Below are positions 40,958 to 43,272 of a stretch of DNA of 43,514 nucleotides, one piece after another. Position numbers and translations under genes: made by a program. Below the pieces are notes generated by a model. That model was not told the origin of the DNA. It worked only from the letters and a program-made list of their open reading frames with translations, and did not search any database. Where the stretch lies: the IMG/VR virus record IMGVR_UViG_3300025679_000012, positions 1 to 43,514 of that record. One strand, written 5' to 3'. The DNA is from a virus. Each line of letters starts with the position of its first letter. Within the stretch, counting starts at the first letter, position 1.

Positions 40958-41299
40958 ATGGCACGCGCACGCAGAGCCACAGACGGCAACGGCACCGTAT
41001 ACATAGCCATCGAATGCAAGGGGTGTGACGAACGCCACACCGTCGTCGTAGCGCGTGGCATCGGAGACATCGGTCCCGTGTGGGGATTCAATGGCTCGCT
41101 CGAGCTACCAACATTCACACCATCACTACGAGTCACTTGGCCGGCGAACCCTAACGCGATAGCAGGCTTTGAGGAGTGGCGCACCGAGAGATGTTGTCAC
41201 TCGTTCGTCGCCGACGGCAGAATCCAGTACCTCGGAGACTGTACGCACTCACTGGCCGGACAGACCATAGACCTACCGGAGATATCGGGTGTAGAATAA
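40958..41299 (+). CDS. DUF6527 family protein
   Basis: 113 residues from ATG 40958. Matches the DUF6527 pattern: WGFNGSLELPTFTPSL, then CHSFVADGRIQYLGDCTHSL and AGQTIDLP. The family is small, found in phages and plasmids, with conserved Cys/His (CKGCDERH, CCHSF, DCTH) that may bind metal. Function not known. Last gene before the RNA locus. Confidence 0.65.
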   Translation: MARARRATDGNGTVYIAIECKGCDERHTVVVARGIGDIGPVWGFNGSLELPTFTPSLRVTWPANPNAIAGFEEWRTERCCHSFVADGRIQYLGDCTHSLAGQTIDLPEISGVE

Positions 41300-41384
41300 A
41301 GACGGGGGAGCAATGCAACCGAGGTCCAAGGCTTAGCCACATGGACACACACATCAACCGCATCACTCCCCCACCAGCTCTTTC

Positions 41385-41423
41385 AAAGGAGGTGATCACA
41401 TATCTCTGGCGAGTCCCAGCCGC
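41385..41423 (+). promoter_or_regulatory. Bipartite anti-16S tail (extended Shine-Dalgarno)
   Basis: A 13-nt AAAGGAGGTGATC lies at 41385-41397 and an 8-nt CCAGCCGC at 41416-41423, with a 19-nt gap (after the shared 12 nt) containing CTC-TGGC-GAG. It would pair to the anti-Shine-Dalgarno and h45 region of 16S rRNA. The nearest start-like codon is ATA at 41400 with a 9-codon frame ending TAA at 41427. Confidence 0.55.
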
Positions 41424-41431
41424 CAGTAACT

Positions 41432-41463
41432 AACACCCCGCCGTTGACGGGGTGTTCTTTTTT
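41432..41463 (+). terminator. Intrinsic terminator with promoter -35 in its hairpin
   Basis: AACACCCCG (41432-41440), loop CCGTTGA, CGGGGTGTT (41448-41456), then a T run (41458-41463). A TTGACG in the loop/3' arm is the -35 of the next promoter. Confidence 0.85.
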
Positions 41464-41471
41464 GAGATAAT
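41444..41471 (+). promoter_or_regulatory. Promoter of the tmRNA gene
   Basis: TTGACG (41444-41449), 16-nt spacer, GATAAT (41466-41471). The transcript would begin near 41478, leaving a ~40 nt leader before the mature tmRNA end. Confidence 0.55.
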
Positions 41472-41517
41472 GGGCTGGACTGGTACACGAGAGCGCAATG
41501 GCTCCGGTCAGTTGATT

Positions 41518-41875
41518 GGGCTCGAATTAGATTCGACTCCGGCGTTCTTTGAAAAGTTGCGATGCAAGCGCACCCGATCGCTTCTCTCGGGTAAAACTCA
41601 AAAGCAAAATCTATTGCTTCTCCGTACTTCTCGAACGCTGGCAGTCTTCGGACTCCTGCATTCGCCTAGCGACGGCGTCGACCATATTGCGGACGTGCGC
41701 AAAATGGCCCGGCGTAAACAATCACGTATGGTGGAGGTAACATGAACCCAGTCCAATGGGCAATGCCCCGGGGTCCGCGTATGCGGGCCGACGAGCTCAA
41801 GCGCTACTTGAGACAGGCATCGTAGACGCTTTTCAATGACACTGAAGGACCCGGGTGCAAATCCCGGCGAGTCCA
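41518..41875 (+). ncRNA. ssrA: tmRNA (ssrA), phage-encoded
   Basis: The 5' end GGGCTCG (41518-41524) pairs with CGAGTCC (41868-41874), discriminator A at 41875, and the conserved GATTCGAC follows the acceptor arm. T arm CCGGG-TGCAAAT-CCCGG (41851-41867 region). An H-type pseudoknot (AAGCG/CGCTT with ACCCGA/TCGGGT, 41566-41592) precedes a tag frame from GCA 41604 to TAG 41667-41669: AKSIASPYFSNAGSLRTPAF and a last A, ending -AFA like some bacterial tags. A second pseudoknot (CTCAAG/CTTGAG, CGCTA/TAGaCG) lies at 41796-41828. Length 358 nt is normal. CCA is not encoded; the T loop has G in place of U55. tmRNA rescues stalled ribosomes with host SmpB. Confidence 0.85.
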
Positions 41876-41882
41876 CACGATC

Positions 41883-41966
41883 GTGCTCTGTCCCCCGAGG
41901 CGCGGTAAAGTCGGATCAGACCAAGCTCCCGCACAATATGAGTCCCAGCCTCCGGGGAGAGCGCAC
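41883..41966 (+). ncRNA. Rod-like structured RNA downstream of the tmRNA
   Basis: Arms GTGC, CT, TCCCC and GAGGC (41883-41901) pair with GCCTC, GGGGA, AG and GCAC (41948-41966) at equal spacing with symmetric mismatches. The loop contains further small helices (GCGG/CCGC, GTC/GAC). It lies between the tmRNA and the protease gene. May be a processing product, leader of the protease mRNA, or packaging site. No coding frame of note. Seen as complementarity; function unknown. Confidence 0.4.
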
Positions 41967-42030
41967 GACAAAGATATCCACACCTTGACTATGAAAGCAC
42001 CATGAGGGGTGTTAATCTTTATGTATTCCC

Positions 42031-43272
42031 ATGAAGACACTCACCACTGAACAAGCTCGCGTGAGAGCGAGCGGTAAATACATCGGCATCTTCCCCTTCG
42101 AGTTCGACGATGGGGGTGGTGGCACAGGTAGCGTGACGATACCGCGCACGATTCACCTGATACCGATTGGGACGTGGGATCATGACCTCTACGGTCCAAT
42201 AATTATTACGCCTGCTGACATCCGGCAATTCGCGTCCAACTTTAATGCAGGTATCCGCAAGGGTATCTTCATCACAGCCGGGCACGAGGGCTATGCCGAG
42301 CTGCCTGCGCAGGGGTGGATAACTTCGGTAGAAGCGCGTGACGACGGTCTGTGGGGCGTGGTAGACTGGAACCAGCTAGGAGTAGAGACTTTGAGCGACA
42401 AGCAATACAAGTTTTTCTCTCCTGAGTTCTTCCTCGAATACGCCGACCCAGAGACGCATGAAGTTACGAAGAACGTTCTCACCGGCGGCGCACTCACAAA
42501 GAGCCCTTACTTCAAGGAACTCGAGGCCGTGGTCTTCTCGGATAGAAACATTACAAAGAAAATTAATACTAACGAAAACATTATGGATATTGCAGAAATT
42601 CTCAAGCTCGACAAGGCCACTCTGACCGACGAGCAAAAGGCTTTTATTAAGACCAACGCCGACAAGCTCACTGACGAGCAGAAGGTGGAGTACAAAGACG
42701 TCGTAGGCGAGGCGGATGCCCCTGCAGAGACGGACGAGGAAAAGACCGCACGCGAGGAAAAGGAGAAGGGCGATGCCAACGAGGCAGCCGGACTCAACCG
42801 CGACGGCTCAGCCAAGACTGCAATCGACGCATCCGAAAAGGTGCAGATCAGTGCAGGCGAACTCGCAGCACTCACCAAGGCAGCGAACGAGGGCAAGTCT
42901 GCATTCGCAGAGCTCCGCACGAGCAAGATCACTGCGTCTGTCAAAAGCCTCGTCTTCAATTCAAAAACCAACAGTGTCGGACGGTTCCTCCCGAAGAGTG
43001 AAGCAGCCCTTCAGTCTTTCATGGAGAAGCTCGATGACGGACAACGCGCTGCGTTTGCAACGTTGGTAGCAGAACTGCCAAGTTCGCAGATTTTCGCCGA
43101 GAAGGGCGATGCTGGGACGATGACGGGTTCAGCTGAATCGGAGGTAGAAGCAAAGACCACGAAGCTCATGACTGAGAAGAAGATGTCGTACAGCGACGCT
43201 CTCAAGCAGACCTTCGCGGAGGATGCAGCACTGCACGAACGCTACGTCGCAGAGACGGGCACGCGCAATTAA
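42031..43272 (+). CDS. Prohead protease with nested scaffold (Mu gpI/gpZ-like)
   Basis: 413 residues. The first ~180 residues match the Mu-type head protease: IPIGTWDHDLYGPIIITPAD, FITAGHEGYAELPAQGWIT, FFSPEFFLEYADPETHEVT with SPEF near 130, GGALTKSPYFKELEAVV. The rest is a charged helical scaffold. An in-frame ATG at 42583 (Met185, MDIAEILKLDKATLT) is preceded by AACGAAAACATT, like other leaders here, so a separate scaffold of 229 residues may be made, as Mu makes gpZ inside gpI. Cleaves scaffold and capsid during head maturation. Confidence 0.82.
   Translation: MKTLTTEQARVRASGKYIGIFPFEFDDGGGGTGSVTIPRTIHLIPIGTWDHDLYGPIIITPADIRQFASNFNAGIRKGIFITAGHEGYAELPAQGWITSVEARDDGLWGVVDWNQLGVETLSDKQYKFFSPEFFLEYADPETHEVTKNVLTGGALTKSPYFKELEAVVFSDRNITKKINTNENIMDIAEILKLDKATLTDEQKAFIKTNADKLTDEQKVEYKDVVGEADAPAETDEEKTAREEKEKGDANEAAGLNRDGSAKTAIDASEKVQISAGELAALTKAANEGKSAFAELRTSKITASVKSLVFNSKTNSVGRFLPKSEAALQSFMEKLDDGQRAAFATLVAELPSSQIFAEKGDAGTMTGSAESEVEAKTTKLMTEKKMSYSDALKQTFAEDAALHERYVAETGTRN
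42583..43272 (+). CDS. Nested in-frame scaffold protein (alternative start)
   Basis: 229 residues beginning MDIAEILKLDKATLTDEQKA. Acidic helical scaffold-type protein (DEEKTAREEKEKGDANEAAG). Translation from this start would leave the protease domain out. The A-rich leader before the ATG is like leaders of separate genes. Expected from Mu gpI/gpZ, not proven. Confidence 0.55.
   Translation: MDIAEILKLDKATLTDEQKAFIKTNADKLTDEQKVEYKDVVGEADAPAETDEEKTAREEKEKGDANEAAGLNRDGSAKTAIDASEKVQISAGELAALTKAANEGKSAFAELRTSKITASVKSLVFNSKTNSVGRFLPKSEAALQSFMEKLDDGQRAAFATLVAELPSSQIFAEKGDAGTMTGSAESEVEAKTTKLMTEKKMSYSDALKQTFAEDAALHERYVAETGTRN

Follow-up and report, generated by a model that had tools for sequence, protein, structure and literature searches.

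A 13-nt complement of the canonical 16S rRNA tail beside a phage tmRNA gene: a candidate extended Shine-Dalgarno site in phages otherwise free of such sequences

Introduction

What is a 13-nt stretch perfectly complementary to the canonical 3' tail of the 16S rRNA doing next to a tmRNA gene, in a phage whose genes nearly all lack a Shine-Dalgarno (SD) sequence? The question is raised by an IMG/VR virus record of 43,514 bases, analysed here at its full length (hereafter the window), which harbors a Mu-like head module comprising the terminase, portal, DUF6527 and Mu-like protease genes. The contig L001, at least 99.96% identical to the window, spans the junction of the two window ends, whose overlap is about 139 bases long and contains one mismatch; the genome is therefore circular or permuted. 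Both the tmRNA gene and the region of the complementary stretch, termed block 1, sit in the gap that extends from the end of the DUF6527 gene (41299) to the protease gene.

Results

Block 1 and its surroundings

The features located upstream of the tmRNA gene are as follows.

40958-41299 (+), DUF6527 gene, devoid of SD, immediately upstream of the hairpin region
41268-41297 (+), putative weak sigma-70-like promoter TAGACC-18-TAGAAT (9 of 12 matches)
41304-41373 (+), long hairpin GGGGGAG...CUCCCCC (fold z −3.9 over 41300-41380)
41341-41433 (+), 30-codon ATG ORF MDTHINRITPPPALSKEVITYLWRVPAASN, of which block 1 would encode the KEVI residues
41385-41397 (+), block 1, AAAGGAGGTGATC, the 13-nt complement of the canonical 16S tail (extended SD)
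41400-41429 (+), candidate mini-ORF of nine codons plus UAA, with an AUA start 7 nt past GGAGG
41416-41423 (+), block 2, CCAGCCGC, in a local hairpin
41432-41463 (+), intrinsic terminator

The 13-nt match had been predicted to be unlikely by chance, and this holds true. A first-order Markov model expects about 0.0008-0.001 copies of AAAGGAGGTGATC on the + strand of the window, in which no second site with fewer than two mismatches to the 12-mer was found. Furthermore, when both strands were scanned, block 1 made the best duplex with GGATCACCTCCTTT of the whole genome (−22.3 kcal/mol; runner-up −19.1). The predicted setting, between a long hairpin and a terminator, was recovered as well, the 41300-41431 RNA, which includes block 1, folding better than shuffled sequences (z −3.4). 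Block 1 is real, as is its setting, and both are unusual. In the predicted fold the SD core GGAG of block 1 is locally paired, and AUG, GUG and UUG are absent from about 5-10 nt downstream of block 1, where an AUA stands at spacing 7. The promoter at 41268-41297, if active, would begin a transcript at about 41304.

The original prediction combined block 1, taken as 12 nt, with the 8 nt of block 2 into a single complement of the 16S 3' end. Both blocks are present as letters, 18 nt apart (19 nt with the first block counted as 12 nt), but the second one has little to commend it. First, CCAGCCGC occurs twice in the window. Second, it folds into a local hairpin (CTGGCG, 41406-41411, with CGCCAG, 41421-41426), and it would face helix 45 of the 16S rRNA. 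Third, in a co-fold with the 16S tail including helix 45, block 1 alone pairs and block 2 keeps its own hairpin. Fourth, CCAGCCGC is not kept in the relatives compared, the corresponding stretch of L008 reading GCAGCCGG. Block 2 being neither free in the predicted joint fold nor conserved, we rejected the two-block pairing as a working unit.

A phage tmRNA gene downstream of block 1

The neighbouring tmRNA system is described by three features, the first of which has its −35 element in the loop of the terminator.

41444-41471 (+), tmRNA promoter TTGACG-16-GATAAT (10 of 12 matches)
41518-41878 (+), phage tmRNA gene (RF00023, 52.8 bits, E 8.9e-20; gathering score 47)
41604-41669 (+), tmRNA tag AKSIASPYFSNAGSLRTPAFA*, to be compared with the tags of L008 and of the patescibacterial locus L121

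The gene was missed by both ARAGORN and a fast whole-window Rfam run, and was detected by a focused Rfam search with a score above the gathering score; with its tag frame present, this bears out the tmRNA that had been proposed from the sequence. Near block 1, tmRNA is the sole stand-alone Rfam family that attained its gathering score, and its true member is the neighbour of block 1, not block 1 itself. The tag is close to that of the relative L008, AKATVSQFFPTVASLRTPAFA*.

Strong sites recur beside the tmRNA of related phages

Portal and protease searches yielded 26 further related phage records, many of them fragments, which were searched whole; an additional relative, L117, was found later and read around its protease only. 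Searched with RF00023, three of the 26 relatives proved to have a full tmRNA gene, namely G001 (locus L003), G006 (L008) and G011 (L019), and hence four of 27 records have one, window included. Partial matches in G017 and G014 were discarded, being fragments situated at tRNA-like ends rather than genes for tmRNA. The GGAGGTGATC sequence is present in three of the four tmRNA-bearing records (window, G001 and G011) and in none of the 23 others; put differently, it was not found in 24 of the 26 relatives searched, the tmRNA-bearing G006 among them. As many of these records are fragmentary, a missing tmRNA or site there is weak evidence. Thus, of the two blocks whose conservation had been in question, block 1 occurs beside tmRNA in two of the three other tmRNA-bearing relatives, whereas block 2 is not conserved.

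In the window, G001 and G011, the genome-best anti-SD complement lies 130, 179 and 339 nt from the tmRNA gene, respectively, and on its strand. We estimate the chance that two of three relatives show a site so near the tmRNA at about 5e-4, considering about 1.3% of the positions per genome in what is a small sample. The codon found after GGAGG is AUA in the window (spacing 7), AUU in L003 (spacing 7) and AUC in L019 (spacing 8). This AUC is directly followed by UAG, and a coding role is therefore unlikely in L019. In both L003 and L019, the SD-led ORF immediately upstream terminates at the UGA within GGAGGUGA. Counterparts of the flanking hairpins were not found in the relatives. The terminator and the tag end are common to the window and L008, with some similarity ahead of the terminator too, a pattern that would fit the window lineage having lost an SD-led gene.

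A scan of viral contigs with the motif pattern returned at least 119 matches, mostly unrelated, and no new tmRNA-linked case among those listed; neither the tag nor the motif pattern led to tmRNA-bearing relatives past those in hand. As side observations, a tRNA with a CAT anticodon directly precedes the tmRNA in L003 (11175-11248), and a tRNA-like gene whose anticodon loop is unusual (caca according to ARAGORN) comes right after the strong SD site in L019 (3480-3558).

SD-led short ORFs adjoin tmRNA in genomes that make little use of SD

That nearly all genes of the window lack an SD was confirmed, since none of the 45 called ORFs (at least 100 codons) has one, as compared to 3/45 at a control position; looser criteria gave three single cases among 53 ORFs. 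Neither is there an excess in the four tmRNA genomes (0/45, 2/48, 2/43 and 4/43, against 3, 3, 2 and 3 at the control position). The exceptions in the sister phages are short ORFs adjoining tmRNA, several of which are cysteine-rich.

L003, 10799-11071, SD-led short ORFs (AGGAGGTGATTTTT-ATG and CCGGAGGAATC-ATG)
L008, 10481-10681, SD-led short ORF (AAAGGAGGATCAC-GTG)
L019, 3265-3468, SD-led short ORF (AGGAGGTC-ATG)

G006 (L008), which departs from the strong-site pattern, carries its shorter AAAGGAGGATCAC ahead of the GTG of a 66-codon ORF. No Pfam family attains its cut-off with these tmRNA-side ORFs, and no conserved ORF product was found at the module.

The candidate host and its 16S tails

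The host appears to be a Paceibacteria-type patescibacterium, to which two sequence clues point without proof. First, the start of the phage tag, AKSIASPYF, also occurs within the tmRNA tag of the patescibacterial locus L121, and the ASPY/SPYF motif is common to other tmRNA tags of the same group. Second, a portal search of the class genomes was positive in one of 384, the Parcubacteria genome G027, in which a small contig bears a broken portal fragment; resting on this one fragment, the portal search was set aside as a weak host assignment.

The original prediction expected the host 16S end to match, and this did not hold in most of the nearest genomes. Among the relatives of G027, 28 of the 29 readable 16S ends are devoid of CCUCC and read GGAACAUAUCC, GGAUCAUAUCC and similar, and pairing with tails of this kind, from a host group that is itself only a candidate, is poor, block 1 ranking 70 to 339 of 2174. 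To describe block 1 as complementary to the host 16S rRNA is thus unsupported by these tails, even though the canonical complement was found in 109 of the 384 genomes of the wider class (Paceibacteria). These 109 occurrences of AAAGGAGGTGATC were also considered as an RNA family, and this was rejected, since most of the inspected loci are genuine 16S ends read on the opposite strand. In a small sample of the class, SD was counted in 1/45 ORFs of the group with anti-SD (control, 0) and in 14/118 ORFs of the other group (control, 6). Neither group shows much SD use, and the SD-lessness of the phage therefore does not decide the host tail. The 16S ends point to a mixed anti-SD status inside one class of Patescibacteria, which merits a separate study. 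In the loci L080-L109, from the nearest G027 relatives, 16S tails such as GGAACATATCC replace the canonical GGATCACCTCC.

Discussion

A candidate ribosome-binding site

We tentatively propose, with slightly less than even confidence, that block 1 is the extended SD ribosome-binding site of a small gene module that is linked to tmRNA and changes rapidly. Four points can be read directly in the letters: the site exists, it is conserved next to tmRNA, the genomes are otherwise SD-less, and the module of the sister phages holds neighbouring short ORFs begun by real SDs. In the window, the site would start the tiny AUA-led frame (41400-41429) or be the remnant of a gene of the sister type. If transcribed, it would pair with a 30S subunit whose exposed 3' tail bears a canonical anti-SD, and the loaded subunit would stand just ahead of the terminator, either at the AUA frame, from which a short product might be made, or without a productive start.

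The suggestion that block 1 is a super-strong SD for the AUA frame gains some support from the AUU and AUC codons in the same place in the sisters and from the SD-led tmRNA-side ORFs. Against the SD-site reading, all three strong sites lack a standard start codon within usable distance. Moreover, it is odd that a gene remnant should retain a perfect 13-mer, the site may be unreadable in the likely host group, whose tails are mostly devoid of CCUCC, and the association with tmRNA comes from a sample of four tmRNA-bearing genomes only. If real, block 1 would be an extended SD kept beside tmRNA in phages otherwise SD-free, with a host 16S tail that is possibly devoid of anti-SD, and would thus offer an example of a phage that recruits ribosomes in a specialised way.

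Alternative explanations

Block 1 could instead belong to a non-coding phage RNA, about 160 nt long (about 41304-41463), that has hairpins and a terminator of its own and would capture or select those 30S subunits in which a canonical anti-SD is exposed. This RNA would act as a decoy or a sensor of a ribosome subpopulation, adjoining the tmRNA that rescues stalled ribosomes. We regard this explanation as unlikely though live, and as less likely than the SD-site reading. The orphan sites in three of the four tmRNA phages, the good fold and the weak promoter at 41268-41297 speak for it, as does a pairing energy far exceeding the −13 kcal/mol that marks the rpsU extended SD (PMC9976891). However, the SD core is locally paired in the predicted fold, the flanking hairpins are missing from the relatives, the tails of the likely hosts mismatch and the self-folded, unconserved block 2 brings no pairing of its own with the 16S end. 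That such a structured RNA, selecting or capturing canonical-tail 30S subunits in a phage of an SD-less lineage, would together with tmRNA make up a ribosome-control cassette is distinctly improbable.

Another explanation, which we consider rather doubtful, is a coding coincidence, block 1 merely being the K-E-V-I codons of the 30-codon ORF (41341-41433). This frame is open, begins with ATG and stops just before the terminator, and in L117 AAAGGAGGTG arises within the portal codons A-K-E-V. Yet the homologue search with MDTHINRITPPPALSKEVITYLWRVPAASN found none, L019 keeps GGAGGTGATC although in that phage the frame is closed by a stop upstream and the ORF is missing, and the repeated place beside tmRNA is left unexplained. 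Pure chance, with the tmRNA association as a small-sample effect, is very improbable: it can appeal to the four tmRNA-bearing genomes and to the many unrelated motif matches in viral contigs, but is hard to reconcile with the expectation of 0.0008 for the 13-mer and with best sites close to tmRNA in three genomes.

Comparison with known systems

In Flavobacterium johnsoniae and other SD-less Bacteroidota, the extended SD of rpsU is marked by a pairing energy of −13 kcal/mol, and a lone strong SD can single out a ribosome subpopulation (PMC9976891). The window site is similar in being one exceptional SD in an SD-less genome, with a pairing past that mark (PMC9976891). It differs in having no bS21 gene (rpsU) and no standard start, in being followed by a terminator and tmRNA, and in belonging to a phage whose candidate host probably lacks the anti-SD. 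The rpsU type further implies a host that retains its anti-SD but conceals it within the ribosome, whereas the class of the candidate host is mixed in this respect.

As regards very short frames, the bar minigenes of phage lambda have a strong SD ahead of a very short frame started by AUG, whereas the window frame would begin with AUA.

The alphaproteobacterial CC2171 sRNA (RF01867) resembles the locus in its consensus, in which GAAAGGAGGUGAUCCAG stands close to the 5' end and the 3' end forms a terminator-like hairpin. The window similarity is confined to the SD stretch, and a search of 41200-42100 with RF01867 (gathering score 75 bits) reported no match even at E up to 1. We also considered the AAAAGGAGGTGATCCAGCC element (G058) as a host counterpart of block 1 and rejected it, as it is not conserved in 296 relatives. 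At the patescibacterial locus L078 (1440-1600, −), AAAAGGAGGTGATCCAGCC is found in an isolated intergenic element that also comprises a GC-rich hairpin, two SD-like stretches and a promoter-like site; this element is a weak match to CC2171.
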